Shown here: piece after piece, positions 1-24,425 of the stretch
How positions within the stretch are numbered: the first letter of the stretch is position 1
How the letters are laid out: each line of letters starts with the position of its first letter
NCBI GenBank assembly: GCA_900128565.1
Contig: LT636004.1
Location: forward strand, 1-24,425
Source of the DNA: Stramenopiles sp. TOSAG23-6
Lineage: Eukaryota > Sar
Direction: 5' to 3'
Length of the DNA stretch: 24,425 bases
Notes under the pieces: model-generated
Told to the model about the DNA's origin: nothing
Seen by the model: the letters and a program-made list of their open reading frames with translations, nothing else
Databases searched by the model: none
Program-made: the position numbers and the translations under genes

Positions 1-55
1 TCATACGAAATTTTGTACCTAACGAATTTTTTTTTGAAATATTTTTCCAAAATAC
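1..55 (+). repeat. 3' part of a repeat-family intron (intron a of gene A)
   Basis: The window opens inside the family core: ATACGAAATTTTGTACC at 3-19, followed directly by TAAC. The family 3' block GAAATATTTTTCC lies at 36-48. The 5' part and 5' splice site are outside the window. The exact 3' end is not determined: the reading frame is open through the element, and the exon probably begins between about 49 and 60. No AG lies between the core and the start of plausible coding sequence except the one in TTGGAGTT at 56-63. Confidence 0.75.
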
Positions 56-60
56 TTGGA

Positions 61-1004
61 GTTAATGCGAATAAAAAATTAATGCTAAAAACAGAAATGG
101 AACGAAAAAAATATGATGGTGCGAAACTGAGACTCATTCAAAAGTCAATTAAAGATTCTTCTAAAATTTCTTCATCTTTACAAAAATATCAAGAAAAGTT
201 TGAAAATATGTATGATGAAATTTCTCAATGCCAAAAACCTGGGATTATCAAATCTCGACATAGGAATTGGTATGGAACAAACCCATTGAAAGTTGGTACT
301 AAAGTAATTGGATATAAAATGGGTCATACTCGACCTCAACGACTTGACTCAAATATTGGTGTAGTTACTAAAGTTGCATCTTCTGGTCGTTTTAAGGGGT
401 TTTATGAAGTTAAATGGTCTGATGGGAAAGTTGTAAAATGGATAAAAAGGGGTGATATTAGAATTTGTCCATCAAATTTGATTAAAGATAAAATAAATGA
501 TGATGAAGATAAAGAAGAAAACACAAAAGTTTCAATAAAAGAAAAAGTGCAAACAAACAAACTAATGTCATCAGAATCATCAGATACAATTAGAAGAAAA
601 CGAACTAAAACTGGTGAAATGAAGATCTCTGAATTTCCCAGGTATAGAGATATGACAAAGTGGTTAGATGATGTTCGTTTTTATCATCAAATCTTGAATT
701 ATTTTTTTTTGTACGAAAATTCCATACTAAACATTTTTTTTTTCGAAACATATTTTTCACAATGAATCCTTGGACGGTTAGAAGTCCATCTAGTTATAGG
801 CAACAAATGAATAGACTATCTACAGGTTTAAAATTGCTTGAGATTGAACTCTCTCAGGCCAAACATCGAAGGAGAACACACAAATATACTCAATTGCAAA
901 ATATGGCTATGAAGCATCAATATTTACCAACACATCAAAAGAATATTTTTACACCTTTTGGTAAACACGGCGAAGGAGAACTCACTCATTCTGGAATTTG
1001 GTAA
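61..1004 (+). CDS. Gene A: protein with a Tudor/SH3-like segment (5'-partial, two exons)
   Basis: Two coding stretches, about 61-672 and about 762-1004, separated by a repeat-family intron; the first exon or exons lie before the window. Exon 1 is lysine- and glutamate-rich and enters a beta-rich segment at about 290-475 (GTKVIGYK... IGVVTKV... FYEVKWSDG... VVKWIKRGDI). This looks like a Tudor/SH3-type barrel, but I cannot assign a family. A charged acidic/basic linker follows. The last exon is a basic tail ending in HSGIW before the stop. It is convergent with gene B, with about 108 bp between stops. Function unknown. The open frame of exon 2 (80 codons) and its composition support coding, but the exact splice is uncertain: the obvious boundary repeat (ATG at 671-673 and 762-764) would put exon 2 out of frame. 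Confidence 0.6.
673..761 (+). repeat. Repeat-family intron b of gene A
   Basis: The element begins GTTCGTTTTTAT (673), compared with GTACGTTTTCAT in siblings. It carries a core variant GTACGAAAATTCCATAC, then TAAAC, and the 3' block GAAACATATTTTTC at 745-758. Between 673 and 764 there is no AG dinucleotide. The frame-preserving end is 761 (..TTCACA) or 764; joining at the ATG/ATG direct repeat gives an early stop (TAG at 779-781). The 3' boundary is uncertain by a few bases. Confidence 0.65.
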
Positions 1005-1112
1005 TCCAATGGATAATAAACTAATTTTATTATACTGTTTTAAAAATTTCATACTCATCAGAAAATAATTTTTTTTTTTTTAGATTTCATAACTTTCAAA
1101 AAAAAACGACAC

Positions 1113-2138
1113 TCAATCTAATTTTAAAGGACAATCGGTTTGCTTCCGTTTGATTCTTGACCATGGCCCAATTTCTGGATCAGTAATGTATTGCCATATC
1201 ACTGCACACCAAGAATCGTGGTATGGCAAGGTATCATAAAATTCAGGTGCCATCGCACGCAACGTTGGCAACCGAGATCCAGGGATGAAAGGAAAGTCAT
1301 GATGCTCGTTATGATAACCAACATTAAATGAAAATACATTGAGAGGTCCATAATATGAGTACGTCTCTTGGCCCTTTATGAAAGTGTAATGCTCGGCAAC
1401 AAAATGCCCAGCCATAGGGTGAATTCCCATGCCTAATAGAGTACCTGCAACTAGATATACAACGCCTTTACTACCAGCTAAATAATAAATACTACAATTA
1501 AATGCAATCTGCATAGTCCAATTAATAGCTTCCCACTTCTGCGGCGCTTTTGGTAGGCATACCAATGGTCTTAATGCATAGAAAGCAGGCTGTAGTAACA
1601 TCCATAAAACTTTCTTCAGAGGTCCAACAAAAAAAGACACTTCCCAGTCTGTTGGAACATCAGCGTCAATGACATCAAGACCTTGATGGCGATGATGGTC
1701 TGCATGATAACGCTTGAAAGATGCTGATGCGGGTATACCAAGAGGCAAATTTGCAACCATCCCAAACAACTTGTTGTACACCATCTTCCGGAAAGCAAGA
1801 CCGTGACTTATCTCGTGCATAGCAAGAGTCATGGCGTGGTTTATAGTTCCACCAATGCAATATGCGCACAAAAACAAAGAAAGCCAAGACATATCCTTCA
1901 CCAACCAACACATGATTACCTGAAGTGCCACCGCAAAAAGAACTTTCCACTTGGTATTAGTATCATGCCCAAACAACTTCTTTACTTGAGGATATTTAGC
2001 CATAATGGCTTTACGGCGAGAGGCATGTGGTTCATCAGTGTAACTCCACTCAAAGTCACGATTTTTCTTAGAAACTTTTCCAGAAACTTTAGGCTCGATA
2101 TCAGGTATACTTATCTGATTGATTGCTTTAGGTGGCAT
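1113..2138 (-). CDS. DEGS1: Gene B: sphingolipid (dihydroceramide) delta-4 desaturase
   Basis: A 341-residue, intron-free, integral membrane di-iron desaturase. It introduces the 4,5-trans double bond into dihydroceramide at the ER to give ceramide. The three histidine boxes of the family are present: HEISH (108-112), HADHH (145-149) and HNEHH (276-280). A further His-containing segment, GHFVAEHY, lies at 244-251. The N-terminus has the DFEWSYTDEPHASRRKAI type of motif (29-45) typical of DES1 proteins, and IPG/YHDSW segments near the C-terminus also match. Hydrophobic spans lie at about 65-107 and 165-240. Length matches the usual 320-340 residues. The start (ATG at 2136-2138) gives the expected N-terminal lead before the DFEW motif. 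The family also contains C4-hydroxylase/desaturase members; delta-4 desaturation is the default assignment. The gene is divergent from C across an AT satellite. Confidence 0.95.
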   Translation of the reverse strand: MPPKAINQISIPDIEPKVSGKVSKKNRDFEWSYTDEPHASRRKAIMAKYPQVKKLFGHDTNTKWKVLFAVALQVIMCWLVKDMSWLSLFLCAYCIGGTINHAMTLAMHEISHGLAFRKMVYNKLFGMVANLPLGIPASASFKRYHADHHRHQGLDVIDADVPTDWEVSFFVGPLKKVLWMLLQPAFYALRPLVCLPKAPQKWEAINWTMQIAFNCSIYYLAGSKGVVYLVAGTLLGMGIHPMAGHFVAEHYTFIKGQETYSYYGPLNVFSFNVGYHNEHHDFPFIPGSRLPTLRAMAPEFYDTLPYHDSWCAVIWQYITDPEIGPWSRIKRKQTDCPLKLD

Positions 2139-2272
2139 TCTAACTAGCTATGGAACGATGTGCTTTTAGATGTGTTTCCAGATGTGTTTCGAATTCAACA
2201 CAAAAGAATACACAATTGCTGCTGATGTGGAGTTCAACGCTTTTTGTAAGGAAATAAAACAGACCGACTTGA

Positions 2273-2280
2273 TGACGTCA
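2273..2280. promoter_or_regulatory. CRE-type palindrome TGACGTCA upstream of gene B
   Basis: A perfect 8-bp palindrome TGACGTCA lies 135 bp upstream of the gene B start, between the gene and the satellite array. This is the classic bZIP (CREB/ATF) half-site pair. Occurrence in an AT-rich intergenic region makes chance less likely, but regulatory use is inferred only. Confidence 0.4.
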
Positions 2281-2321
2281 TATTAGTCTAAATGGACAGG
2301 TTTGTGCAAGAAAAAAATAAT

Positions 2322-2935
2322 TTTTTATCTGTATGATATATGTATATTTTTGTTATATGTATTTTTTTGATATAATACATATAGTATTTTTTTACATATA
2401 ATTTAAGTGTTTTTGTTATATGTATTTTTTTTTATATAATACATATAGTATTTTTTTACATATAATTTAAGTGGTTTTTTTTATCTGTATGATATATGTA
2501 TATTTTTGTTATATGTATTTTTTTTGATATAATACATATAGTATTTTTTTACATATAATTTAAGTGTTTTTTTTTATCTGTATGATATATGTATATTTTT
2601 GTTATATGTATTTTTTTTTATATAATACATATAGTATTTTTTTACATATAATTTAAGTGGTTTTTTTTATCTGTATGATATATGTATATTTTTGTTATAT
2701 GTATTTTTTTTGATATAATACATATAGTATTTTTTTACATATAATTTAAGTGTTTTTTTTTATCTGTATGATATATGTATATTTTTGTTATATGTATTTT
2801 TTTTTATATAATACATATAGTATTTTTTTACATATAATTTAAGTGGTTTTTTTTATCTGTATGATATATGTATATTTTTGTTATATGTATTTTTTTTGAT
2901 ATAATACATATAGTATTTTTTTACATAATTTTTGT
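2322..2935. repeat. AT-rich satellite array, about 93-bp units in a 186-bp higher-order pattern
   Basis: The phrase ATCTGTATGATATATG recurs at 2327, 2483, 2576, 2669, 2762 and 2855, giving steps of 156, 93, 93, 93 and 93. The first step is longer because it holds a complete unit plus a truncated one. Units alternate strictly between two types: one has T-run plus GATATA and ends AAGTGT, the other has T-run plus TATATA and ends AAGTGG. Each unit contains the inverted repeat TATATGTATT / AATACATATA, a 10-bp stem with a short T-rich loop. The array fills most of the space between divergent genes B and C and ends about 65 bp before the gene C ATG. No coding potential is seen. Confidence 0.95.
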
Positions 2936-3000
2936 AAGATTTATTGAGTTTCCGGTCGTTATATGTTTTAGTTCATAATATAATTGTTGAATAATATAAA

Positions 3001-3915
3001 ATGCCAGTATCTTTGTCTGATTTATTTGAACATGTTGGTCCATACGGGAATGACTCAAGTTGTGACATTCTATCGTTTGCTTCAAATCGTTTTTATGTAT
3101 ACCATAAATCAAATGATGGTACAACAATGCAATTTCCGAATGGATATGTACCTTCGTTATTGGCAGAGTTGGCAGTGCGTGGAGTTCTAAGAGAATGTGT
3201 TCGTACCTTTTTCTTTGAAGATACTGTTGATGATGCGGTACGTGTGCAACTTCAAGATGCAGGTTTTAATGTCCTCGATGCAGTTAACAGTGGTTCTTCA
3301 AATTCGGTTTGGACTTGTGGTGTGCCTTACAAAGAGAAGCTTTCAATACCACCATGTTTAACCGCTGTGAGGCGTCGATTACAATCTGAAGGATTGATAC
3401 TATCAATTCCCTTTATTCAGGATCATTTTGAAAATGTGTATATTTTTATTACTTCTCCTGGTATATCATTTAAAGGAACTGAGCTTGAATTGTTAATCAA
3501 CTGTCCCGATGGTGGTACGTTACTACCTCGTATATTTTGTGCGTCTGCGTCTCATAAACGTTTATGGAAAAAGTTACCTATGGCAATGCTAATGAAGAAC
3601 GATGGAGTGTTATTCGGAACTGATGTTTCAGACATTGATACGCGATCGTATGGTATAGCATGGCAGAGAAGTATTATGCGATATCGAGTTAAATCACCCG
3701 ATATAAATGGTGACAAATGGATGTTTTTCATTGAGAAAGGTTATCCGCCTGCTTATGTAAAATGGTTGATTAAAAAGGGATTGACATTTTATACGCGAGA
3801 AATGAGTTCACGTTTATCAGACAAGTATGATAATGAAGTTCGTGGGATAGGTGACGCATCATCTTCCAAGAACTCCACATTGGTGTCACCAGTGACAATC
3901 CCGCGCCGGTGGTAG
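3001..3915 (+). CDS. Gene C: unknown 304-residue soluble protein
   Basis: An intact frame of 304 residues starting at ATG 3001, about 65 bp after the satellite ends. I do not recognise the family. There is no signal peptide or membrane span. It reads as a mixed alpha/beta globular protein with several Cys and aromatic residues. The segment from about residue 105 to 260 (VPYKEKLSIPPCLTAVRRRL... IPFIQDHFENVYIFIT... LLINCPDGG) looks like the folded core. The C-terminal roughly 35 residues are Ser-rich and probably disordered. Gene-like codon composition, length and a poly(A)-type AATAAA about 100 bp after the stop support a real gene. It lies head-to-head with gene B and tail-to-tail with D. Confidence 0.85.
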   Translation: MPVSLSDLFEHVGPYGNDSSCDILSFASNRFYVYHKSNDGTTMQFPNGYVPSLLAELAVRGVLRECVRTFFFEDTVDDAVRVQLQDAGFNVLDAVNSGSSNSVWTCGVPYKEKLSIPPCLTAVRRRLQSEGLILSIPFIQDHFENVYIFITSPGISFKGTELELLINCPDGGTLLPRIFCASASHKRLWKKLPMAMLMKNDGVLFGTDVSDIDTRSYGIAWQRSIMRYRVKSPDINGDKWMFFIEKGYPPAYVKWLIKKGLTFYTREMSSRLSDKYDNEVRGIGDASSSKNSTLVSPVTIPRRW

Positions 3916-4015
3916 AAACTCATGGAAGCAAGAAAGAATTAGTTATTTCTGGTTTGTTGTTCATCTCCAGAAATATTCACATTGAAATGGTTATTTATAA
4001 TATTTTATTATTTTC

Positions 4016-4021
4016 AATAAA
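4016..4021 (+). terminator. Poly(A) signal-like AATAAA after gene C
   Basis: AATAAA lies 100 bases downstream of the gene C stop, in a 203-bp spacer that separates it from the convergent gene D. The position fits a 3' end signal. In sequence this AT-rich a single hexamer is weak evidence. Confidence 0.35.
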
Positions 4022-4118
4022 ATAACACTATACCTTGACACTATATCAATCTCATATTGTAATCGTTTTCACACATTGGGTAAGGATTCTGGAATTATAC
4101 TTTATTCAAATGTAAAGA

Positions 4119-4877
4119 CTAATTTATATCTTCATAAACAACAAATCCTCCATTAGGAAAACCAATCCCAGTTGCAACTGGATTATCATTGGGTATACTA
4201 CTTACTTCACTCTTAAATTGACCTACAACATCAATCTCATCATCAATAATTAATGTGAAACTCAAAGACTCCTCATTAAATGTAATGCTGACTGTATGTT
4301 CCTCTCCATCATTGACTTTCTTTGACCCAAATATTTGCTCACCGCCACGAAATCGAAATCCAACCACACCACCATGCTCTACATCTATGAAAAGATCTCG
4401 ACTTTCCTTTTTGGTAAATCTACCAATTACAGTATTTTTGAATAAAAAATTATTCACATCATGTATACCTGAGTCCAATATTTCATACAGAATATGCTGC
4501 TCGCGTGCGTTACTATTCGTGAGAAATTTAACTGGCCCTACATTTTGCCAATCAACTCTGTTTGCTAATATTACATTATCATTTCGTATTTGACGAACTT
4601 CGAGTTCACTTTCGTAATCTATTTCATTAAAAGTCAAGTAGAATGAAAATCCTGCGACGAAAAGGCTAACTATAATAAAACAAACGCCTGTTAAACACAT
4701 AGATGAGGCATAGCTTGACTGTCGTTTCTTTTTTTTATGTTTTTTGGTTTTTTTGGAAGAATTCTTTGGTGTAACTTTTTGAGAAGGAAGACTTGTTTCA
4801 TTCAATTCTGGAGAAGCCAACGATACTGAAGATGTTTCAGGTTTAGCCATTATACAGTTGATACGTTTTGAATCCAA
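4119..4877 (-). CDS. Gene D: type II single-pass membrane protein with a LamG/concanavalin-like ectodomain
   Basis: 252 residues. A Ser-rich cytosolic N-terminus runs into a very basic lysine stretch (about 42-53). One hydrophobic span follows (about 61-83). The C-terminal part (about 100-252) appears to be a beta-sandwich. The string DGEEHTVSITFNEESLSFTL resembles the laminin-G/concanavalin-fold hallmark (a D-G-x-x-H-x-V strand followed by an I-D-D turn). Lys before the span and the absence of a signal peptide suggest N-in, C-out topology. The start may be Met1 (4877) or Met10 (4850); Met10 still leaves the whole protein intact. Function unknown. A TTACCCGGTA motif lies 126-135 bp upstream. 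Confidence 0.8.
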   Translation of the reverse strand: MDSKRINCIMAKPETSSVSLASPELNETSLPSQKVTPKNSSKKTKKHKKKKRQSSYASSMCLTGVCFIIVSLFVAGFSFYLTFNEIDYESELEVRQIRNDNVILANRVDWQNVGPVKFLTNSNAREQHILYEILDSGIHDVNNFLFKNTVIGRFTKKESRDLFIDVEHGGVVGFRFRGGEQIFGSKKVNDGEEHTVSITFNEESLSFTLIIDDEIDVVGQFKSEVSSIPNDNPVATGIGFPNGGFVVYEDIN

Positions 4878-5002
4878 GCTGTGGTATTGTATATGGAGGG
4901 CTTTTCACGTATTGTTGAGTCAGAGTTATGTGGGGGACGGTACGTTTTATAAATGAACACAGATATGAATATCGCCGAGATCGCCGAAACGACAATAACT
5001 AG

Positions 5003-5012
5003 TTACCCGGTA
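5003..5012. promoter_or_regulatory. TTACCCGGTA motif upstream of gene D
   Basis: TTACCCGGTA lies 126-135 bp upstream of the gene D ATG, in the 163-bp spacer after the end of gene E. It matches the first ten bases of the 11-base element found twice before gene I (14401 and 14420). The element is dyad-symmetric, TTACC-N-GGTAA. It is a candidate transcription-factor site; function is inferred. Confidence 0.4.
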
Positions 5013-5040
5013 CACCATTATTTTGTGATTTCTTCATTTA

Positions 5041-6275
5041 TTAATCTCGAAAATAGAAGTAAGTAATAAGACCACTACACAGAGCAACAAGAAAAGGCTC
5101 AAATGCATTTGATATAATTCTTTTGTACATATTTGATTTTTTTTCACAAATATTTATAACGATTGTTTCTTTTCCATTATCTAAATCATTTAATATTTCA
5201 TTTTCATGTTTTCCATTATCTAAATCATTTAATATTTCATTTGCATGTTTTCCATTATCTACTTGATTCTTTATGTTTGTTTTAGTTGATGTAGACGCAA
5301 ACATTCTCTTTGCACTCATTTTACTTCTACGATTATATAGGGCAATGCATTTTTGTAAGGAAGATTTTTCTTGTATGAGAGTAGAACAATTATTTTTTAT
5401 CTTTAGTGCTTTAGTAATATCATCCGTTGCGCCACTGAAATCAAATAATAAACGTCTCGCTTTGGCTCTTCGATATAAAGCTTTGACATTTGTAGGATCT
5501 TTTTGTAAGACCAAGGAACATGTATGGTAAAAAAATGTGTTACATTAAAAAAAAATATGTTACATTCGAAATTAGTCAAAAAAAATCTTTAGGTACAAAA
5601 TTTCGTATGAAAAAAAAAATGAAATTCATGATATGAAAACGTACACGCAGAACATGCTTCGGAATACTGTTGTGTTCTAATTTTACAACAAGCTAAGTTC
5701 AGCTGAGATTGTTGTAATATTTTTTCTACTTCTTGCTCTTCAGTAAGAGTGTCAGGAAAACAATAATCAAAGTATACCGAAACTCGACGATACTCAGCCG
5801 CCGCACGGTACCACTGGCCTTCTTTATAATAATCATTTCCAAGTTGTTTAAAACTCTTGCACTTTGAAATTTGCTCTTTTGTACTCAAGTCATAAATTGC
5901 ACGTTCTGCAGATTTATCATGATTACAACCAGACAAACCTTCGCGCTTTTTTTGAGTCTTCAATAACTTTTCAGAACGCTCATTTAAAATACGATTTTTT
6001 TCCGCAACGTCCTGCTCTGCACCCCAAATATCCCATCTATCATATTCGTCGCTGATACTCGTATCAATTCTTCCTTCCAATTCTGTGCGTCGTTTTTCAA
6101 GTGCACTTTTACGACGCCTCAAAAGATCTGTATCACGTTTTGTAGATTCCAAATTCTCTGAGACACTTTCCACCTGAAATTGGGCTGCTTTGGTAAATAG
6201 GTTTTCCATTTCAGGATATTTACGTTTCTCGTTAGATCTTGGCATTACCTGGATTAATTGGTTTTCGTTTCTCAA
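5041..6275 (-). CDS. Gene E: TPR-domain protein with a C-terminal membrane tail (two exons)
   Basis: Exon 1 spans 6275-5645 and exon 2 5519-5041, giving 369 residues. Charged coiled-coil sequence occupies about 40-120. TPR helices run from about 135 to 275, including a canonical unit joined by the splice (..YSEACSAC / SLVLQKDPTNVKALYRRAKA), whose Tyr, Ala, Leu and Pro fall at the expected spacings. A linker with a 13-residue repeat follows, and the C-terminus ends in a hydrophobic segment (FLVALCSGLITYFYF) suited to tail anchoring in ER or mitochondrial outer membrane. The layout recalls FKBP8-type or other Hsp90 co-chaperone TPR proteins, but no FKBP domain is present, so only a TPR adaptor role is inferred. 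The start may be Met1 or Met11. Divergent from gene F. Confidence 0.8.
5171..5261. repeat. 39-nt tandem repeat inside gene E
   Basis: TTTCCATTAT recurs at 5171, 5210 and 5249, a period of 39 bases, with two full units and a partial third. The period is a multiple of three and encodes about 13 residues (NGKHENEILNDLD) between the TPR region and the membrane tail. Near-identity of the units suggests recent expansion by slippage. Confidence 0.9.
5520..5644 (-). repeat. Repeat-family intron of gene E (125 nt)
   Basis: Read on the minus strand, the element starts GTACGTTTTCAT, contains the core CATACGAAATTTTGTACC followed by TAAAG, and ends ..TTACCATACAT. The TPR register fixes the join at SAC / SLVLQKDP. 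TGT is present at both junctions (5645-5643 and 5520-5518), so the cut can slide three bases without changing the product. None of the permitted cuts ends in AG. The only AG in the element directly follows the core. Confidence 0.85.
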
Positions 6276-6495
6276 CGTAGCATGCCCATCTATGAACTAT
6301 TAATGATCTGATCTGAACTGAAGACAGAGTACTGGAAAAATATAGTTTATTGAAAGAAAACATCACGTAATAATAAATATAATAATCTGACCGCTGCATC
6401 GATCAAAGACCGCGCGCGACGTGGCCAAATTTGCGTGATTTGAAAAGTCCGTAAAAGTCGTCTTAAGTATATAAGGGATCACTCATTAATAGAAA
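6276..6495. promoter_or_regulatory. Divergent promoter region between genes E and F
   Basis: A 220-bp spacer between two start codons. It holds a locally GC-rich stretch at about 6409-6425 with a GACGTGGC box (6418-6425, ACGT core as in bZIP G-boxes). TATATAAG lies at 6468-6475 on the gene F side. The TATA-like box begins only 28 bp before the gene F ATG, which would place transcription initiation at about the start codon. Either the leader is extremely short or this box is not used. Confidence 0.4.
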
Positions 6496-7299: not shown

Positions 7300-7360
7300 T
7301 ACCCAATACGTTGTCCAAAACAAATGCATATAAAATATCAAACTACTTTTATTACTTCGA

Positions 7361-10300: not shown

Positions 10301-11872
10301 TATATCATTTATCTTTGAAAGGCCATCTCTATCTCTTGTGCGATTTATTGCAGCAGAAATCGATGTTCTTTGAAGTTCGTTCGAACGTTTTTCACTTACG
10401 AAATTAACTACGGATTGTAAATCCTTTACACCTGTCAAGAACAATCCTGTCTTTTTTGTGCTCTCCAAGTTCCATTCACATAGCAATACTAATATTTTTT
10501 TAAGAGTGTCGATTGGCAAACGGAATTGATTTTTATTCTCAAGTTTTTCAATTGAATTTTCTGAATTATTTTCTGAATGAAAATGTATACACAGCGATGA
10601 AAATAATAATGATATACGAATTGCAGTATCCAATGCAAAACGCGTGAGTCGCGTTGGTTTTCTTTTTTCATTGCAACCCTCAAAAACAGCACTATCATTA
10701 CATGCACATGTAATATGAAGAAATATTTCAAAACTTTGAAATTTGTCAGACACAAAAAAATACTTTAAACTTTGCAATTTGTCAGACACAAAAAAATATT
10801 TCAAAACTTTGAAATTTGTCAGACACAAAACCTTTGTAATTCTACGAGTCTGTCGGAAAAAGAATAAAAAAATAAAAGTTGAAAGGAATGATGAAAACGT
10901 ACATGAAATGAGTGCGTTGCATAAATTCATTAGCATATTCTTCAATGTTTTTCTACGTTTTAAATTTTCACTTTCTGTCCCAACAGTCGACTTTGAATTA
11001 TTTATTTCGTGTTCTAACCGAACAGGGTTAGGGTTATTTACCTTTGTTGTTTCTATTCTCGCAGAATGATGTGATTTAATCCCAAGATCTTCAAATGTTA
11101 CCGAGAGTACTTCCCGCTTTGAATTGGCGTCTATGTGTTCGTCCGATTCAATCAGAGATAATAAATCACCAAGCAAAAGTATATAGATTAGTTTTTCACT
11201 CCGATTTGAGCTAGAAAGTACTTGTTGAAAATACAGAGCACTGGGTAACAAATTACATCCAATACTAGTATTTTGATGACGTCCTCGTAAAATAAATAAC
11301 CATTGGAAGATAAATAACAGACGTGAACGTTCGGCGTCACCAATATTATTTGATTTTATACTTGAAGTCCTTTCACATCTGGCTCTACCATTTTGACGCT
11401 TCCACAAAAAAAACCACCGATGAACTAAAGGCTCCATGATTGTCCTAAAAACATGAGTATCTGTAGATTTAGATATACATGATGTAATCATATGAATTGC
11501 ATGACATAGGGTCTTACTTGATTTATAGGGTGTGTTCTTCTCACGATGTAGCGATGACGTCGAACGTAAAAAAGTATTCTCATCCAGATGGGTCAAATTT
11601 GCTCGCGCAGCGACTTCTTTGCCTCCAAGAAGGGCTTTCACGTGGCGAGTGGCTTTTTCAGAATCATCATTACATCCTGAAATCAATAATCTTGAAACAT
11701 TTGCATATTTACTTGATGGAGAAAATTGCCCTGATTCTGAAGAGTAAATAGAACGTAAAATTTCCCCACGAGATTTGGTAGCAGCAGCATCCAAAAGTAG
11801 TGTCAAAGATTGGCCTAAAGAGAGATCTACAGACATATTCCCATCAATTCCAAGTGCAACCTTACAATACAA
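7361..11872 (-). CDS. Gene G: large HEAT/ARM-type alpha-solenoid protein (one in-frame intron)
   Basis: The uninterrupted frame is 1503 codons, but 10702-10902 is a repeat-family intron of 201 nt, giving a spliced product of about 1436 residues joined at ..NALISC / NDSAVFEG... Most of the protein is helical with HEAT-like helix pairs, clearest at about 583-748 of the spliced protein (for example AKIRTEAAKLLGRF and TKIRSAASSSLLQVL). An inserted beta-rich SH3/Tudor/KOW-like segment lies at about 765-826 (LKLGDMVLLQNLSALHLNG, then a GYIIS / GRFKIRL pair). Further solenoid helices follow to the C-terminus. No catalytic motif or membrane span is seen. I cannot name the family; INTS4-like and other large HEAT scaffolds are possible. 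The start may be Met1 (11872) or Met13 (11836). Confidence 0.75.
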   Translation of the reverse strand: MYCKVALGIDGNMSVDLSLGQSLTLLLDAAATKSRGEILRSIYSSESGQFSPSSKYANVSRLLISGCNDDSEKATRHVKALLGGKEVAARANLTHLDENTFLRSTSSLHREKNTPYKSSKTLCHAIHMITSCISKSTDTHVFRTIMEPLVHRWFFLWKRQNGRARCERTSSIKSNNIGDAERSRLLFIFQWLFILRGRHQNTSIGCNLLPSALYFQQVLSSSNRSEKLIYILLLGDLLSLIESDEHIDANSKREVLSVTFEDLGIKSHHSARIETTKVNNPNPVRLEHEINNSKSTVGTESENLKRRKTLKNMLMNLCNALISCTFSSFLSTFIFLFFFRQTRRITKVLCLTNFKVLKYFFVSDKLQSLKYFFVSDKFQSFEIFLHITCACNDSAVFEGCNEKRKPTRLTRFALDTAIRISLLFSSLCIHFHSENNSENSIEKLENKNQFRLPIDTLKKILVLLCEWNLESTKKTGLFLTGVKDLQSVVNFVSEKRSNELQRTSISAAINRTRDRDGLSKINDIKDESILDYELWLCKQWLTCAPSLISSHGRFLYSKTAIARDSINNWVNVEIITYDQVRTLLRLAILYTGKLKLKERISLLSDQNLSHSIIRAAVEHMNSRICGPIPKLVASLLQETITALLSLNGGEEKFDEVLEVLFTLLDDNDNIEEDIWNKHSMSEAGIKMVCYFAIQDPLKSIPALISRLMKSSSLTRWNALAVVDELITTSSLQLRNTILDENCLLFILGEHLLICLGDEKAKIRTEAAKLLGRFDASWIIPQLCQRIENKQTKIRSAASSSLLQVLQHLRNPKDVMCILMSYIRNTSQIDSQQLKLGDMVLLQNLSALHLNGRRGYIISSLLENGRFKIRLMNEKRQEKIVKNIAVKKENLRVIVNNSENTTKKVDTEEKISLCDRLIKILSRWASVINHSQWMCVGTVIINEAMIFPRDHTIIRILRILGERIQCRLQKIYFEKHNTNDILDEHYYTDSIWSLVLIPMETELHTSKDMTESLHTSKELPSNYSLDNEHTQEILFRRLNQVLILKSFPVFEFVHLCDRTRVEKQNCIPQRLIQVLIQSVTASQEFESVRRQSAEVLARFPPKVLHPILFSKLRTISNELQQFVRSEKNPRKCSSIVISAKTMLYCLCTSIMIYSSVHENIRDVVTKCNGDICKGGFEVVLQILQSSFLHCTSLEIPDDIYKLQQGCIDTMACILRISIDIGEGVTNIVNDDNTEESRPHKFQLRLPNDSANVLKQHMYNRPLISEVKQIPSPDSRFSNGHIGATILSICLELIEKGETKLPIIQFSKECNDIVSYLTNGTSDISKRVKTYTISLKSYEVSERVRICLVNSLLTVMKMLKKHQMHLFGVLCINSIIHTVYKTKIPTTKDDSPGRVNTVTTSPLIREAVIRLLFTIAYHSKKIVKHYSNELFSIAYSAIEDSFENIRLEGLKLLGILLTTVELQNLLKESRSGALGQIIALLRNIRTSDCSPDTKKLSENLLGLIH
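10702..10902 (-). repeat. Repeat-family intron of gene G, 201 nt, in frame and without stops
   Basis: On the minus strand it starts GTACGTTTTCATCAT, identical to gene E's element over the first 12 bases, and ends ..TTACATGTGCAT. CATGT is present at both junctions, so the cut is ambiguous within five bases. The core is degraded (CTCGTAGAATTACAAAGG). The 3' block GAAATATTTCTTC is present, and related copies occur in a three-unit tandem repeat. Length is 3 x 67 and the gene frame stays open, so only the family match and the low-complexity Phe/Lys-rich translation reveal it as an intron. Confidence 0.75.
10729..10831. repeat. Three-copy 36/37-nt tandem repeat inside the gene G intron
   Basis: GTCAGACACA recurs at 10745, 10781 and 10818. 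On the minus strand each unit reads roughly TGTGTCTGACAAATTTC, then AAAGTTTTGAAATATTTT, so units carry the intron-family 3' block GAAATATT or a close variant. This is local expansion of the 3' part of the element. Confidence 0.9.
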
Positions 11873-12188
11873 ATAGCAATACTATGCGTGGTGCATTTGG
11901 TCACACATATACATGTCGTAATTGATGATTACTATTTGTATTCAAGAGATTATTACTACAGTCGTTATAATAAGACTGAAGTGTATTCACCACTCAAGTT
12001 TATTTTTCTGTCATGACTCAGCTCAGACTTTTTTTTTCGCGCCTTTTCGAACAGGTTTGTCACGCTTTTCCGTTGCCGACCGTTTCAAAAAGTTCATCAT
12101 GGACTATCAGATTTTCATACCCACATCAATTTGATAATCATAAAATGATTTATTAGCCCAAAAACTCAACAATTGATCAACACTTACA
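11873..12188. promoter_or_regulatory. Divergent intergenic region between genes G and H
   Basis: 316 bp between the starts of G (minus) and H (plus). It contains TGACTCA at 12014-12020 (an AP-1/GCN4-type bZIP heptamer), a poly(T) run, and otherwise AT-rich sequence. No RNA gene or extra coding frame is convincing here. Confidence 0.35.
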
Positions 12189-14162: not shown

Positions 14163-14583
14163 AAAAGGTGCTGTCCTGAATATAAACAAAAAAGAAAAGT
14201 ACAAGGAAAAGAATCTGGTGACCAAAAAAAAATCCTGATTTTGGAGTAAAGCACGACAAAAAAAACTACATGAAATCTCACGAAATACTTGATACTGAAT
14301 ATGAGATTTGTGTTGGATATTACATTTTGATTATACTTCACTTAACGATACTTTAAATTTGAGTTAATAAAAGAATCTGATACATTCTGAAATTTTGTTG
14401 TTACCCGGTAATCTTTGTGTTACCCGGTAACTTTTAGGATTCTCGCGGCAAACGTTGCATCAAAAGAGATCAAAAACGTCGGTTGGAGCGAGTGTGAGAA
14501 CACTTTCTTCTCTAAGTAGTATATAACGTATATTACATTCTTTTCATTTCCCTGATTTTGTCAAAGGTAAATAAATAAACATC
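14163..14583 (+). promoter_or_regulatory. Intergenic/promoter region of gene I with paired TTACCCGGTAA elements and a TATA box
   Basis: 421 bp between H (stop) and I (start), same strand. Two identical TTACCCGGTAA elements lie at 14401-14411 and 14420-14430, centres 19 bp apart (about two helical turns). TATATAA is at 14520-14526, 58-64 bp before the ATG. The spacing fits a promoter with TSS near 14550. The first 180 bp look like the 3' region of gene H. Confidence 0.5.
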
Positions 14584-17298: not shown

Positions 17299-17528
17299 TC
17301 GCACAAATTAACACCGTTGTCATTTCCCGTTTTTCAATTAAAATTAAAAATTAATACTGCAATAAAATCACACTATTCTCAAATATTTATTAAATTTTTC
17401 CTTTAACCCTAACCTACTATAGTCGCTAAATTAGATCGATCCGTGGTCAACATTACCAATGATGTGACATAACATGAAATCGTCTCCTAATTTTTAAGGA
17501 AAAGTCGGAAAAACTGCTGCTCTATGAA

Positions 17529-18602
17529 ATGACTGCACCATCTACTTCGCGATTATCTGTTCGGCCTATACCAGTATCTACGTCAACAATATTTGATGGA
17601 GTTGTTACTCGGCAGTGGAAATTTCAATTAGGTGAAAGCTCGTTATCAGAAACTGCGTGGCATATTGTAGGCATTAGGCATTCAACATTGTCAGGTTTTA
17701 GATATGCTCTTTTAAATGGAAAAGAGATATACGATTCTGATGGTACAGTGAATATGTATACTTTGAGGGGTCTCACATATGGTCGCGATTCGCTTATATT
17801 AAATATTGGTGGATCTGAGGTGATATTGTCAATCTCAAAGCCAAAAAATAGAACTCTTTATGAGTATACTTGTACAATAGATGGCCAGGCAATTCCAGAA
17901 ATGAATTCTAGGGATGAAGATTCCATTATCTGTAGTAAAAGCTATGATATTGTAATCGATCATGCTGAAGTACAGTTAGTTAAGGAGGAACCTGTTGTTT
18001 TCTTCGTTATCCGTGTGAAAGATGGTAGCGATGAGAAAATATTACGACGTCGCTTCAAAGAATTTTACGATCTTAATTTTGACTTATCTTCAGTCTTGAA
18101 AGGAGTGAACACTACAACTCTCCCGTATTTTCCACCTCGGTCTTGGAAACGTGTTCGTGATCATTTTGATCATACTTTTATTGAAAATAGAAGAAAACAA
18201 TTAGAATTGTATGTCCGATATCTTGCCTTGATTCCACGTGTCACTTCGGACCCCTCATTTTTATTATTCTTTGATTTGTATAATGTACCAAATGTGACTT
18301 ATAACATTGTATTTAATGAAAAACATGGTGGTATATTTGGACATCCTGCAAAAAAACCTTGGTATACAAAATTAAGCGAAATGTTTTCTACTGATTCACA
18401 AAATACTACGAAGATAAATAACAAAAACAGTAATAATCAAAATACTTCTGATGGTGTAATCGATACTAATACTATTAGTACAAATATTGATGATACTAAT
18501 ACTACTAGTACAAATACTGATGAATCCCAATCAAATTCAGTAACATCTAAAGAACTGAAAGATTCGAAGTCAATTCATTTTGTCGAGTCGAAAGATTTAT
18601 AA
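17529..18602 (+). CDS. Gene J: FAIM1-like domain fused to a PX domain
   Basis: 357 residues, single exon. The N-terminal region (about 28-125) has the strand pattern of Fas apoptotic inhibitory molecule: WKFQLGE, HIVGIRHSTLSGFRYALLNGKE, TLRGLTYG and YEYTCTIDGQAIPE. It corresponds to about one FAIM1 repeat. A PX phosphoinositide-binding domain follows (about 135-255) with RRRFKEFYDL (basic K/R plus F-x-x-F/Y), the PxxP-like loop LPYFPPRSW, the RRKQLELYVRYLALIP helix and a SFLLFF end. The C-terminal tail is an Asn/Thr/Ser low-complexity region with short repeats (DTNTISTN / DTNTTSTN). Likely acts at endosomal membranes via PI3P; the FAIM1-like role is unknown. It is convergent with gene K. Confidence 0.82.
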   Translation: MTAPSTSRLSVRPIPVSTSTIFDGVVTRQWKFQLGESSLSETAWHIVGIRHSTLSGFRYALLNGKEIYDSDGTVNMYTLRGLTYGRDSLILNIGGSEVILSISKPKNRTLYEYTCTIDGQAIPEMNSRDEDSIICSKSYDIVIDHAEVQLVKEEPVVFFVIRVKDGSDEKILRRRFKEFYDLNFDLSSVLKGVNTTTLPYFPPRSWKRVRDHFDHTFIENRRKQLELYVRYLALIPRVTSDPSFLLFFDLYNVPNVTYNIVFNEKHGGIFGHPAKKPWYTKLSEMFSTDSQNTTKINNKNSNNQNTSDGVIDTNTISTNIDDTNTTSTNTDESQSNSVTSKELKDSKSIHFVESKDL

Positions 18603-18606
18603 ACTT

Positions 18607-18700
18607 GTTTAATTTTCAAATCTTAATTTATAGGTCATTTATTTTACATTGTGTTTAATTTGCAAATCTTAAAATTTATAGGTCATTTATTTCAGATTGT
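18607..18700. repeat. Tandem duplication (46 and 48 nt) across the end of gene K
   Basis: Two adjacent copies begin with GTTTAATTT at 18607 and 18653 and share AAATCTTAA..TTTATAGGTCATTTATTT. They differ by a 2-base indel and a few substitutions. The second copy contains the last codons and stop of minus-strand gene K (stop at 18676-18678). The first copy is non-coding and lies just after the stop of gene J. Confidence 0.85.
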
Positions 18701-21700
18701 AGTGCAACTAACTTCTTCCGTGTAGCACGGGATCTTTGAATTGCAGCAATCCTGGTCACAGCTGAATGATCATCGAAATTTGCTGATCCTAGGATATCAC
18801 CAATATTCGTTGCTGCAAATGTACACTTTATAGTGTTGAAATTGATTACATCTGCAATTTGTTGTTGTACATTTTGACATTCCATATACGTAATATCTAC
18901 TCCATCGATGGCGATCAATTCGTCACCGGGGCGAACACCCCTCTGAGAAAGCAAACAATCCAACCCTCCATCTAAATGTTTAACAACTGTGCCCCCAGTA
19001 CCAGAGTCTTCAAGTGGTGCTAAATCTAATCCTAATGTCACTGGGCCCAACTCAATAGTGCATTCTCGCAAAAACTGCCGACGTCCTTTAAATGTACCAC
19101 CTGGGTACATTAGAGAAATTGTTCGACTACGACCACTTGATGTCTTTCTATCTACAAATTGAATTGCATCTTTATGAATCATACCTCCAATACCAATACC
19201 ATCAATAGCTACTAACCACATACCCACTTCAATTCTATCATCTAGTGAAAGTACAGTTTTGGATCCAAAAGAAAGTAAACAAATACCAGTACGTTTTTCA
19301 ACGCCATATTCATTTTTATGTGGCCCAAGTTTCCAATCCACAGCTCCCGGGGGAAGTCTCACTGAAATAATTTCGATTGGGTTATCTCTTCGCAATGCTC
19401 GTTTCTCAATTTCTCGCTTCTTTTTTGCTTCCGCTATCCTTTTGCTGCGACGCACTTGGTGTAAATCCCACGCTTCTTCAATGACTTGTACCAAAGAATA
19501 TCTTGCGCATGCTAATGAAATATCCACCGTATCAAGCCACACTAATTCAAATATTTTTTCAACCACATAGTTAACTGCAATTTTCCGTGTTAGGATATTT
19601 TCAGCAATACGATGCTTCCTACCCCGCCACCATGCTTGCATACCAATCAATGAATGCATAATATTATTACGTGCTTTTCTAGCTAGATAGCCTCTTCCAA
19701 TTTTATTTATTTTCTCGGCAAGTTCGCTAGCTTGCTTTACTCTCCAATTGCTCCAGGTTCCACTGGGCATTCCTTGAAGCATTGGTAAATTCTCAAATGT
19801 AGTTCCACGAAAAGGCTGAGGATGAGCGCCATATGTATGCTGGTGTTTTCGCTTGGTAAAACCAAAACTTATAGTAGATGCACGCTGGAAGACTTTTCGT
19901 GCAGCTTTAACATTTTTCTTTTGCATATAAATATATTGCTGGCGCAAAAGGACTTCGTGTAACATTGTCTCCCACTCAATCGTATTGGACATATTACTCG
20001 GTAAGCGACCCAATGCGGATTCAAAACTTAGGAAATCTTTCATTGCTTTGTCCCATTGATTACGCTTTGACAATAAGATGCCATGGTAATATAAAATCTT
20101 TGTGCGAATAATCGACATATTTACCTTTTCTTTTTCAAGTATAACCTGTGCATCATGTTTGTTCGTTTCTGATAGCATTGACCAACGTTTTACTCGCTCT
20201 ATCTCTTTCCGGATACCCTCACGAATCATGATACGCTCTCGGTCTTCTTCCATCTGTTGTTTTATTATTTTCTCTATTCTAGCCTGGACTACAAAATAGT
20301 CTTCATCATCAGAAAAGGTATCGTCCTCAGTTTCTTCTTCACTAGTACTTGGCTGAATAATGTCACCAAATGCGTCATATTTTACTGGTGCATTTTTTCG
20401 CCGTTCTTCTCTTTCTTTGAGTCGCTGTTGATTGCGTTCTTCACGACGTTTCTCGTGTCTTGCAGCTCTATCCTTATCATCTATGGCTTTCAACTCAGAC
20501 ATTCTTTCTTCGTAGGTTTTTTCTACGACTTGTGGTTTCGCATCATTTCTGGATAGAATATGATCACATCCTTTTGCGATTTCTAAAAATTTTTTATCTG
20601 TACTATGTACACTATTAAACTCTTTCGTTAATTCTGGTATAGACATTCGGCGCAGTTGCATAAGCATTTCAAGACTGTTCTCTTGATCTGCTGTCCAACC
20701 TGGTGCGGGTTCATCGATACTTTCAAGAGATCGTTTTGTTGTCGGTCGTGAAATTGATACATCTTTACTGTGTGCTGTACTGGGCCTTGAACTAACTTTA
20801 GATGCAGCTGTTGTTGGACGAGAATTGAGCATCAGCAGTTCTTCGCGCGTCAAGCTAGTATCAATTTCCTCTTCTTTATCCTCAACTTTAAGACTTTTCT
20901 CTTGTTGTTCTTCTTTAGGCTCGGTGAGCTCCAGTAATTCTTCAAATTGCTGAAAAGCACGAGAATTTATTCCCATTTCATAAGTGGTTAGAGCCCTCTG
21001 ATATAATATTTCATAGTTAAGAGGATCTTTTTCATTTAGAAAGTTCCAGTCACTTAAGCTATCTCTATATCGACCTATTTGGTGAAATAATCGACCTCGT
21101 AAATAATATGGAGGAAGGTAATCTGGTTTAATCTTGATGATTTCATTGGCATCCACGAGTGCCTCATACGGTTTATTTAATTTCTCTAATAGAAGGCCTT
21201 TGTAATAGAAAACCTGGGGTTCACGATATTCTGCCTCCATTGCAACATTGAAATCTTTCTCGGCTGACGTGAGCCTTTCTTGATCACTCATTTTTTTACT
21301 TTCGTTTTGTTTTAACCCATCCCAAAAGTAGTAGCAGATTCCCCGGAGAAAGTATAACTCCCCCATTGTGGCATTTTCAAATGAAAGATTTCTAAGAGCT
21401 ATTGTAAACATTTCGATTGCCTTTCCAAAACACTTTTGTTTTAAATAAACTCGACCTTGGCTAGACATGACTTCTGATTCAGTCTCTGTAGTTTCCTTTG
21501 CGTCTTGTGAGAATGTATTGTTGCCAGTCATATCACAGAAAGCCCAATTACGAAGTGTTTTGAAAGAAATTGGTGCAGATCGAAGCTGGTTATGTGCGAG
21601 ATTACACCCTTGTAAAGCTCGAAGTTTCTTCATACTTTGAGGTAATTTATCTATATTATTATGCTGAATTTCCATTGATTTGAGTCGCGTGAGCAACCCT

Positions 21701-23609
21701 AATGTATCTGGTAATCGTTTAAGCTGATTGTATGAGAGTTTTAATTTTGTTAGCCCGGTACAACAACCCAAGGAATTTGGAAGACTTTCTAATTTGTTTC
21801 GTGTGAGATTTAAATCAGTTAAATTAATGCAGCCCCCAAATCCTTTACACAGAGAAACTAAATCATTTTCCAAAAGATTCAGTGTCTTTAACCCAATCAA
21901 ACCACCAAATGAATTTGGTAAGTCTACAAGTTTATTTCCTCTAAAATCTAATTCAGTCAAATCTGTCATTTTACCAAAACTTTCCGGAAGATGCTTTAAA
22001 TTGTTATCATGTAAAGTCAATCTTCGTAACGAATGGAATGAACCAAATCCATTTGGTAGATTTGATAGCCGATTTGGACTAAGTAGTAAAGTTTTCAGTG
22101 ACGTTAGATGTCCGAATGAATTTGGTAAAGATAATAATTTGTTTTGCGATAAATTTAAATATTTCATTAGATTACAATTCCCAAAGTTTTCTGGAAGATC
22201 TGAAAGCTGATTTTTTGATAAAGAAAGTTCTGTCAACAAAATACAATTACATAGTTCTATTGGAATTGATTTCATACCATTACTACTAAGATTTAGAGAT
22301 GTAAGTTTTGTCAGCATTCCAATTTCTCCTCCAAGTGTATGCAACTTATTATAGCTCAAATTACAGCTTTCTAATTGTTTCAATTTACCAAATTCTGATG
22401 ACTCTGTCAAGTCATTGTAGACTAACCTCTTTAAACCTAAATTATTTATATGTAATGACTGCAATGCTGTAAGTCTTCCTACACGCCAAGGCAATTCTTT
22501 TAGCTTATTCCCCCCAACTCGGAGGTCAGTTAACATCGTGGCAGCACCAACAGTTTCTGGTAAAAGTTTAATAAAGTTATGTGTTGTGAAAAAATATTTC
22601 AAAAACAAATTAATTTTTTGTTATTTACAAAATTTCGTACGAAAACAAAATTCAAAATTCAAAAAAAAATAAAACATACATACTCTGCATTAAATATTTC
22701 AAGATATTTAAGTTCGACAAAGAATTGACTTGGTATGACTTCAATTTCATTATTACCAAAATCAATCTCTCGGAGATATTTACATTGAACAAACTCTTCG
22801 TACATTTCTTGAATATGATTTCTTCCGAGTCGGATTGTCGTTAAGGATTCTCGTAAGCTCAAGATCTCACGAGGTACTTGTTCAATCATATTATCTGAAA
22901 AATCCAGAATTCGAAGAAATTCACAATTCTCCATTGTCATTGACATGATTCCCCATAAAGAAAGAGTTTCCATTTTTTCTAGAGTATCATTTGGAATTTC
23001 TCTTAGGAGATTTCCACTCAAATTTATGGTCTCTAAAGATGTTATTGCCCAAATGCAGCTGGGACATTCCTGTAGTCTATTATTTGCGAGAGAAAGTTCT
23101 GTAAGATTTTCCCTGTAATCCATTATTTCTTGTGGAAATTTCTTCAAGGAAATGTTTTCTATTTCAATTTTTTTTATATCTGTATAAACACCATTTGTAT
23201 CGGGTTCGGGTTCATTGTACTGTCTGCGGTATGTAGCTAACTTTTGTTGTAAAATATCAAACTTTTTCTTTCTAATTTTAAATTTTGANTCTCGCTTTGC
23301 ATAACGAAGGGCATCAATACTCTCCTCAAGAGTTAGTTCTTTTTCAATATTTGGCGTTTCGAAAGCATCGATTTCCTCGGTTTCTTGCCAAGCAATTTCG
23401 CCAACTTGTTCTTGGAATCCTTCGAAGTTATTTTCATCTTTCCATTCATCACTTTCTTTCCATTCCTTACTATTGTCGAATTCATCATTTTCTTTCCATT
23501 CCTGATTACTTTTATACTCATCGCCATCGTAATAACCACCATAACTTTCGACATATCTTTCTTCAGTGTACTCATGACTAGTTGGGTCTATCCTGGCAGT
23601 ATCTCCCAT
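18676..23609 (-). CDS. Gene K: giant LRR-TPR-IQ-PDZ scaffold protein (two exons)
   Basis: Exon 1 spans 23609-22680 and exon 2 22578-18676, giving 1610 residues. An acidic N-terminus has EWKExDE repeats (36-58). About 20 leucine-rich repeats cover 146-665, with an unbroken L-x-x-L..N-x-I/L-x-x-LP register across the splice. A TPR array lies at about 683-860. RP-[TS]-T repeats follow at 896-924 (SRPTTA, SRPSTAHS, SRPTTKRS), then a charged coiled coil (about 1000-1110) and a TPR-like pair (about 1138-1215). IQ motifs lie at about 1265-1300, then two PDZ domains (about 1378-1470 and 1483-1567; the second has GDELIAIDG) and a final IQ (about 1584-1600). The combination suggests a calmodulin-regulated cytoskeletal or axonemal scaffold; no ortholog named. 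Codon 107 is GAN (Asp or Glu) because base 23289 is undetermined. Confidence 0.88.
22579..22679 (-). repeat. Repeat-family intron of gene K (101 nt)
   Basis: On the minus strand it starts GTATGTTTTATT, contains TCGTACGAAATTTTGTA followed by AATAAC, carries the 3' block GAAATATTTTTTC and ends ..ACAACACAT. The LRR register demands Tyr310 followed directly by Asn (AEY / NFIKLLP), which fixes the join; AT is shared by both junctions. No AG dinucleotide occurs anywhere in the 101 bases, so a canonical 3' splice site is impossible at this position. Confidence 0.88.
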
Positions 23610-23923
23610 TTTGGTAATTAAAAATGCCCCAAGGAAAAAATAGTCTGTACTACGATTTAGATTCGTAGTACGTGTACCATTTAAAGGTACCAGTACCTAC
23701 ATGCGTTAAAATGCAAAAATCATGAAACTGCCACTTTTTCGATTTTTCAAAATGTATATTTTCGATTTTTGATTTGATTGAACCATTTCGCTTGCCCATA
23801 ATATTATTTAAGATTAACATAATGCATAAAATATAAAATAAAAATCCTATCTAATTGACCCAACAAAGTAAGTCGTCTACTTCGACCCACGCTTAATGGC
23901 CTAAAACCAGACATTTTTATACA
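23610..23923. promoter_or_regulatory. Divergent intergenic region K/L with two stem-loops
   Basis: 314 bp between the starts of K (minus) and L (plus). Near the gene K start lies a perfect 9-bp inverted repeat, GTACTACGA (23647-23655) and TCGTAGTAC (23663-23671), with a 7-base loop. It is followed by GTACC (23674-23678) and GGTAC (23686-23690) around ATTTAAA, then another AGTACC. They sit 38-81 bp upstream of the gene K ATG, so they could be in its 5' leader or be protein-binding palindromes. The rest, towards L, is AT-rich without clear signals. Confidence 0.5.
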
Positions 23924-24363
23924 ATGGGTTTATGTTCATCATCCCCAACAATAAAACAAAATTCCCGGAACGATTCTTCCGCGAATACTTCAGAAAAAGT
24001 CATCGTTCATCACAAAAAAAAATCAGTTGCTTGTGGCTTTGCACCTCATCGGCAGGTAAAAGGTTTCACTTCAAAGTTTGTAGTACATAAGACATTGGGT
24101 CGTGGTATGACTGGTAACGTAAAGTTAGTTTCTCGTGTAGGTGAACCAAGTAAAAAATTTGCCTTAAAGTCAATTTACAAGCGACTGATCAACGAAAGCG
24201 ACTTAAAAGTGTTAAAGAAAGAAATGCACATTTTATCTCGTCTTAGTCACCCAAATATTGTACACTTATATGAAACGTTTGAAGACAGTGATTGCATATA
24301 TTTTCTTCTGGAATACTGTGGCGGTGGTGATATATCACAGCGTATGCTTGAAGCTTCAAAAGA
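23924..24363 (+). CDS. Gene L: CAMK/CDPK-type protein kinase, N-terminal exon (3'-partial)
   Basis: About 146 residues before a repeat-family intron. The start MGLCSS gives Gly2 for myristoylation and Cys4 for palmitoylation, so membrane attachment is likely. A disordered 45-residue lead precedes the kinase N-lobe: glycine loop LGRGMTGNV (58-66), catalytic lysine in FALKSI (K82), C-helix glutamate in VLKKEMHIL (E100), then LSHPNIVHLYETFED and the hinge FLLEYCGGGDI (about 127-137). The HPNIV and ETFED strings are typical of calcium/calmodulin-dependent and CDPK kinases. The C-lobe and any EF-hands lie beyond the window. Exon 1 ends after GA of a split codon. Confidence 0.88.
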
Positions 24364-24425
24364 GTACATTTTCATTATGAATTTCAAATTTATTTTTTTT
24401 TCGTACGAAATTTTGTACCTAACAA
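24364..24425 (+). repeat. 5' part of a repeat-family intron (gene L)
   Basis: It starts GTACATTTTCATTATG and runs through a T-rich stretch into TCGTACGAAATTTTGTACC then TAAC, where the window ends. The matching segment at the window start (1-23) is nearly identical. The frame stays open to the window end, so the 3' boundary is not visible. Confidence 0.85.

Follow-up and report, generated by a model that had tools for sequence, protein, structure and literature searches.

Contig LT636004.1 of the Stramenopiles sp. TOSAG23-6 assembly (GCA_900128565.1; 8,027,113 bases in 408 contigs) was analysed over its entire length of 24,425 nucleotides, here called the window (contig C54). Its genes are interrupted by short repetitive introns, or introners, which appear to be removed at a 3′ boundary that is not AG. 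A first-pass annotation had placed six such interruptions in five genes (A1 and A2 in gene A, and one each in genes E, G, K and L). All six lie where they had been placed, and they fit a single family of elements of about 97 nt. The core said to be shared by the two window ends, E and K is recovered in these four copies (A1, L, E and K; at most three mismatches), with no match in 100 shuffles. The 12-base identity that had been pointed out between the 5′ ends of E and G is real and corresponds to GTACGTTTTCAT.

The window begins and ends within two copies of the element. Positions 1–57 (forward strand) hold the 3′ part of intron A1, with the core, CTAAC, a T-rich run and AATAC followed by TT, after which the exon restarts at position 58 (GGA GTT AAT). 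Intron L (24364–24425, forward) is the 5′ part of a copy in a protein kinase gene, downstream of the Pkinase domain. Its 5′ flank is GA instead of NT (any base followed by T), and the contig ends right after CTAAC, which explains why no 3′ block had been seen in L. Intron E (5520–5644, reverse strand) interrupts a TPR-containing gene and runs from GTACG to CATAC plus AT, with GT as the 5′ flank and AT as the 3′ copy. Its core (5588–5610, reverse; TCRTACGAAATTTTGTACCTAAC) has one mismatch, CTAAA for CTAAC, and its removal joins SACSLVLQKD; Pfam TPR_2 begins shortly downstream of the junction. Intron K (22579–22679, reverse) in an LRR/TPR gene runs from GTATG to CACAACAC plus AT and has its core at 22620–22642 (reverse; GTAAATAAC, two mismatches). 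Its removal restores an LRR, and Pfam LRR_8 spans the junction.

Introns A2 and G are diverged members of the family; they are among the gaps without a profile match, and their assignment relies on the ends, the 2-nt repeat and the frame. Intron A2 (673–767, forward) runs from GTTCG to AATGA plus AT and is preceded by AT, which gives an AT/AT direct repeat; KWLDD is joined in frame to PWTVRSP. Intron G (10708–10902, reverse), in a HEAT-repeat gene, also has an AT/AT repeat, with GTACGTTTTCAT at its 5′ end, ATTAC plus AT at its 3′ end and no clear core. The open reading frame continues through it because its 195 nt correspond to 65 codons. Tandem repeats of 36–37 bp are found inside it (window 10718–10830). 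Intron G is an introner-like intron that has grown by duplicating internally, and its length is a multiple of three. Excision of A2, E, G and K results in a single reading frame in each case.

The first-pass annotation had proposed a search of the whole genome for further copies, and hundreds were found, sense-oriented in unrelated conserved genes. The exact core 20-mer TACGAAATTTTGTACCTAAC occurs 814 times (423 + 391) in the 8.03-Mb assembly and the pattern ATGTAYGTTTTN{30,60}GTACCTAAC 805 times (393 + 412), with no match for the reversed control in either case. Extending the pattern through AATACNT, with TT, GT, CT or AT before GTAYGTTTT, gives 50, 49, 16 and 466 matches, respectively (581 in total; reversed controls 0). 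These patterns miss diverged copies of the A2 and G kind. Conversely, the contigs C2, C4, C13/C14 and C27 are palindromic or doubled and inflate the counts, 17 of about 100 matches listed for ATGTAYGTTTTN{30,60}GTACCTAAC are by eye the same copy twice, and one copy on C28 appears with two ends in the full-pattern (AT) list, so that the number of distinct copies is smaller than the raw counts. Palindromic and doubled contigs would be consistent with the amplification of whole genomes from single cells. Among the core matches listed, at least nine further contigs start no more than 60 bases from a core (C11, C13, C14, C15, C19, C23, C29, C30 and C38, of which C13 and C14 are near-duplicates), which would be expected if assembly breaks down at the repeat. 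The host genes include those for an ABCC transporter, an SNF2/CHD helicase, UCH_1, an M16 peptidase, TBC and RING proteins, which are unrelated and conserved. The core 20-mers gave no match in viral contigs (two variants) or in prokaryote species genomes (one variant), and exact matching thus gives no hint of lateral spread.

Two arrangements of copies stand out. Contig C13:1–3400 is very dense, with nine copies in about 3.1 kb among the matches listed, and is perhaps a single gene with many introners. In the TBC gene (L001, 1357–1553) two introners lie back to back without an exon between them, and the AT edge of the first seems to have been the insertion site of the second.

The anatomy of the element was derived from 48 strict copies with at most one substitution at each end. 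Their consensus is GTAYGTTTT...TTTTTTTCGTACGAAATTTTGTACCTAAC...T-run...GAAATATTTTTTCACAATAC plus two bases, and their median length is 97.5 nt (range 69–125). A GT start, mostly GTAYG, is seen in 42 of the 48, a donor that would fit U1. The core GTACGAAATTTYGTAC is a near palindrome. Exact CTAAC is present in 39 copies and is followed by a U-rich tract; its second A, at a median of 38 nt (24–47) from the 3′ end, is the putative branch site. Mean pairwise identity is 0.61, while that to the nearest neighbour ranges from 0.52 to 0.93. Some 5′ and 3′ ends occur together: TCATAATCC is found with GTACG only (four copies) and CCAAAATAC with GTATG in six copies and GAATG in one. Similarity reaches both ends of the element and then stops, the flanking columns being mixed except for NT, a following G (29/48) and a rarity of G at −3 (2/48). 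We also considered a U12-type AT–AC intron, the consensus of which has an ATATCC donor and the branch site TCCTTAAC; GTAYGTTTT and GTACCTAAC are not U12 signals, and this assignment was rejected.

The excised unit is NT|GTAYGT...CTAAC...AATAC-NT| and ends in CAT (the usual case), CTT or CGT. The first-pass annotation had missed the acceptor, which would lie at NT| and not at AG. A first set comprised 71 copies in which both ends were recognised with up to two substitutions; in 42 of them each flank had a single open frame. Excision from NT| to NT| leaves the same frame in 33 of these 42, compared with 2/44, 7/44, 2/42 and 7/43 when the 3′ end is shifted by −2, −1, +1 and +2, respectively. Among 60 copies retrieved to fix their ends exactly, 41 were frame-consistent, two inconsistent and 17 ambiguous. 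A later set of 74 exact-pattern copies (these 60 and 14 others) was reduced to 69 by dropping five in which the upstream frame was non-unique. Here the frame is open at the NT boundary in 61 of 69 and in 9, 7, 9 and 6 of 69 after the same four shifts. Retention would disrupt the gene in 66 of the 69. Phase counts are 10, 11 and 12 in the 33 frame-consistent copies, and 32, 17 and 16 for phases 0, 1 and 2 in the later set, which was chosen by its 5′ dinucleotide.

Conserved proteins place the junction at the same position. In the SNF2 helicase the motif ADEM|GLGKT is rebuilt across it, in an ungapped alignment with CHD1 (PDB search, E 1e-54; none at E 1e-66), and the ABCC transporter aligns without gaps with ABCC2. 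Pfam TBC, UCH_1 and M16_C run through the junctions in three of five proteins tested, as do RING and LRR in other genes. In the RING gene (L011), which reads CACTAT|GTATGC...AATATAT|GTGCTCC, no register that the repeat allows gives an AG end. Because their 3′ boundary is not AG, these introners are not ordinary GT–AG introns. One further query looked asparagine-synthetase-like by eye, but its PDB search was empty at E 1e-4, which leaves that name unsupported.

The NT dinucleotides at the two boundaries are a 2-bp target-site duplication, the 5′ copy apparently being exonic and the 3′ copy intronic. Among the strict copies, 37 of 48 have the same base at −2 and directly behind AATAC (29.9 expected; 1 of 1000 shuffles as high). 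A set of 60 copies enriched for a non-A 5′ base contains the 5′/3′ pairs A/A 6, C/A 12, C/C 2, G/A 11, G/G 9, T/A 11 and T/T 9; the non-A 5′ base is matched at the 3′ end in 20 of 54 (7.2 expected; 0 of 5000 shuffles), and all 34 mismatches have a 3′ A. This direction is partly due to selection, since the set was picked for a non-A 5′ base. Among the unselected 48 strict copies, a 3′ A with a 5′ non-A is seen nine times and a 5′ A with a 3′ non-A twice, one of the latter being a likely mis-called end. Where the frame is clear (47/60), the −2 base lies at codon positions 1/2/3 in 5/13/1 matching and 3/12/13 mismatching copies. It is thus at the wobble position in 13 of 28 mismatches versus one of 19 matches, an excess that we read as silent drift of the exonic 5′ copy.

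Orientation was assessed with a codon-usage segmentation of 232,706 bases (182,663 coding), which replaced a stop-to-stop open-reading-frame gap scan that was too noisy. The coding neighbour of 90 profile hits is in the sense orientation for 60 and antisense for one, while 29 have none within 60 nt. The joined flanks are open in 65 of 74 copies in sense and in eight of 74 in antisense, and the longer open stretch is the sense one in 70 of 74 and the antisense one in four. This sense bias favours removal from RNA and disfavours elimination from DNA.

Copy number, boundaries, sense orientation, frame restoration, the 2-bp duplication and the lack of a boundary AG can all be read from the genomic sequence. 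They make it likely, in our judgement, that this is a transposon-like introner family of an uncultured marine stramenopile that is removed spliceosomally via a U-tract and a CAU acceptor. An element of about 97 nt would land at NT, mostly AT and mostly with G following, and would duplicate both bases. It would bring its own donor GTAYGT, the branch site GTACCTAAC and, towards its 3′ end, a U-rich module that terminates in AATAC, and the duplicated NT would become the last two bases of the intron. Because insertion with a 2-bp duplication supplies the intron end, splicing would give back the original coding sequence, that is, the mRNA of the empty site. Removal as NT|GTAYGT...AATACNT| would make the acceptor (C)NU|, mostly CAU|, and not YAG|. 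The major spliceosome would carry out this removal in RNA, using GTAYGT and CTAAC in step one and a C-N-U acceptor after the U-tract in step two. CAU| may be recognised through the U-tract together with a contact between U(−1) and G(+1), a model put forward for HAU sites in Prp18-deficient yeast, and by this analogy such acceptor use appears to be the most likely mode. Spread may depend on a DNA transposase supplied in trans. That introns of this type propagate between unrelated genes, as the first-pass annotation had suggested, is supported by the hundreds of copies, their sense orientation in conserved genes and the target-site duplication.

A wider proposal is more tentative and in our estimate falls a little short of even chances. 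The otherwise ordinary spliceosome of this host would routinely use NU|, mainly CAU|, for hundreds of introns, and any transposon equipped with donor and branch site would become an intron once it had landed at AT, with no AG needed in the target. A change in second-step fidelity in the host, for example loss or alteration of Prp18, could then have opened the genome to invasion.

Several observations weigh against the main interpretation, a transposon-like introner family removed by the spliceosome. Six of the 48 strict copies start with something other than GT (GA in two, AT in two, TT in one and GC in one). The frame is left unrestored by 9 of 42 copies in the first set and 8 of 69 in the later one, some of which are mis-called ends. 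In 12 of the mismatching repeats the −2 base is at codon position 2, which is beyond silent drift and suggests that the intronic copy shifts towards A, i.e. towards CAU|. Two of the five proteins tested had no Pfam match over the junction and are uninformative. A search for same-species proteins or transcripts of the spliced TBC and aspartyl-protease-like pieces found none (best 28% and 37% identity, respectively). A 2,021-aa open frame, carried on in a second frame past some N, encodes Prp8; in a 572-residue piece, residues 1–567 can be aligned gap-free with the human protein and by eye are mostly identical; the aligned region looks ordinary, and therefore nothing found accounts for a relaxed choice of acceptor. 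Prp18 (PF02840) was unmatched in the genome, the assembly being partial and the positive control silent too. DDE_Tnp_4, the one transposase family searched for, was not found in the genome.

Other parts of the splicing machinery and other introns were also looked for in the host. Slu7 is partially present in the assembly, and Rfam U2 and U6 gave no match, the controls being silent too. The segmentation left 47 short gaps between coding segments, of which 31 overlap a profile match and 16 do not. By eye, about eight of the 15 inspected among these 16 have introner-like ends (A2 and G included) and one is a clear canonical intron; the remaining ones look like gene borders or sequence errors. The canonical intron lies in an FKBP gene (L013:2397–2496; GTAAGT...TCTAAC...AACAG), and its excision restores FKBP_C. 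In a scan for canonical introns four distinct donors were found with YAG versus one or two with each of five control acceptors, homology support being available for FKBP only. An AG acceptor is thus in use in this host, as seen once, and the introners are most, but not all, of the introns found. The earlier statement that all detectable introns belong to one family holds for the window but not for the genome.

Among the alternatives, removal from RNA without the major spliceosome, by a separate hairpin-guided route as suspected for the introners of Amoebophrya or the nonconventional introns of euglenids, would account for a non-AG boundary with direct repeats at the ends and for donors without GT in some copies. 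The expected number of end-to-end base pairs, 2.49, is also somewhat above that of interior-shuffled (1.98) and fully shuffled (1.12) controls. Nevertheless it ranges from 0.01 to 8.95 and is near zero in many copies, and the terminal inverted repeat amounts to only about 4 nt (GTAY/ATAC). The weakness of the average end pairing makes this route less likely. The recurrent GTAYGT, CTAAC and U-tracts are spliceosome requirements, and Prp8 and Slu7 are in the genome. We regard a hairpin-guided route as improbable.

It is very unlikely that the elements are ordinary GT–AG introners with the real acceptor at an AG near the 3′ end and the CAT end an alignment artefact. The donor and branch site do look canonical, the same genome has a canonical GT–AG intron, and 21 of 69 copies have an AG between the branch site and AATAC. 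Yet only 15 of 67 copies stay in frame when cut at the AG that comes first behind the branch site, and 15 of 67 when cut at the next AG past the boundary, compared with 61 of 69 at the NT boundary. Moreover, the SNF2 copy has two AGs between branch site and boundary, and ADEMGLGKT is restored only at CAT|.

Programmed elimination from somatic DNA, in the manner of the internal eliminated sequences (IESs) of ciliates, is unlikelier still. IES excision is exact and leaves one copy of a 2-bp repeat, which would suit the elements described here. IESs of the ciliate type, however, are not known to show an orientation preference relative to genes, and DNA elimination offers no reason for the 60 sense against one antisense of 90, or for the 65 against eight of 74. 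Nor would a donor and branch-site layout be expected, and we know of no nuclear dimorphism in this group. That the elements are ancient introns made alike by splice signals and AT-richness, or an amplification artefact, instead of mobile copies is barely conceivable: T-runs of low complexity ease alignment and palindromic and doubled contigs do occur, but the exact 20-mer is present 814 times against none for the reversed controls, nearest neighbours are up to 0.93 identical over whole elements, a 2-bp target-site duplication is seen, and amplification chimeras would not place units of about 97 nt sense-oriented in different genes.

The proposed spliceosomally removed, transposon-like introner family can be compared with several known systems. 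The introners of diverse eukaryotes (Gozashti et al., 2022; PMC9860276) are likewise similar introns in unrelated genes, alike almost to both ends and flanked by target-site duplications; mRNA length is usually unchanged after insertion and splicing, and the hosts are often aquatic and include stramenopiles such as Aureococcus. In contrast, target-site duplications are given there as 3–9 bp for earlier families versus 2 bp here, and the acceptor here is not AG. The words 'stramenopile' and 'MAST' (marine stramenopile) are absent from the main text of that paper. Since its search begins with annotated introns, it would probably miss elements such as these where annotation assumes GT–AG. Amoebophrya (Farhat et al., 2021; PMC7789003), also a marine protist, has non-canonical introns that recur and carry direct repeats across the exon/intron boundary, but with inverted repeats of 8–20 nt, direct repeats of 3–5 nt and no clear splice signature; the present elements have shorter inverted ends of about 4 nt, a 2-nt repeat and one recurrent donor and branch site. 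In Fritillaria borealis (Henriet et al., 2019, as cited in PMC7789003 and PMC12621601) non-canonical introns largely replace canonical ones and are thought to be removed by the U2-type spliceosome, but they mostly have AG–A(N) ends and not GT...AT. Hemistasiid diplonemids (PMC12621601, the main text of which lacks the word 'introner') have mostly non-canonical introns and a nearly complete spliceosome, but variable ends with strong end pairing. Yeast lacking Prp18 uses HAU 3′ splice sites, among which CAU and UAU are the best non-G sites; poly(U) helps and a U(−1):G(+1) contact has been proposed (PMC10711555). Preceded by a U-tract and paired with a GU donor, these CAU/UAU acceptors resemble the ones seen here, but there they are minor sites of a mutant, whereas here they are apparently the normal acceptor of hundreds of introns. 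Judged by the features that can be tested in sequence, the elements work like introners and belong with them; they lack the AG of canonical introns. In a literature search that left out most subscription journals, neither the 2-bp duplication nor the GT...AT ends had a match, and no paper joining 'MAST-3' and 'introner' was found.

These elements link two open questions, namely the bulk gain of introns and the strictness of the spliceosomal need for AG. If transcripts confirm the boundaries, this would be a natural genome with CAU| acceptors, known elsewhere as minor sites of a yeast mutant, as the norm. The host is probably MAST-3: the sphingolipid desaturase of the window is 93% identical to EukProt GSMAST32.ASY1.ANO1.2400.1, and the record name suggests that GSMAST32 is a MAST-3 single-cell genome (PMC5778133). 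By eye the two proteins differ only by two stretches missing from the EukProt model. The gene (window 1113–2138) has no intron, and in the DNA both stretches begin with GT and end with AG; they are apparently false introns of a GT–AG predictor. Introns of the present kind may explain such poor annotation, and possibly also why too few complete proteins were available from the published MAST-3F assembly for gene-finder training (PMC5778133). In the MAST-3F literature, 'intron' occurs 0 times in the main text of PMC8163842 and twice in that of PMC5778133.

The 5′ third of a eukaryotic 18S rRNA gene lies at the start of contig C1 (L009:1–564, reverse strand). Between the desaturase gene and the next gene, the window contains an AT-rich 93-bp tandem repeat of about six units (2317–2935). 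A 39-bp tandem repeat (DNGKHENEILNDL repeats) is found in the coding 3′ part of gene E (5163–5268). Short TTAGGG/CCCTAA-like runs occur at about 11024–11037 and 17403–17414, one within a gene and one intergenic.

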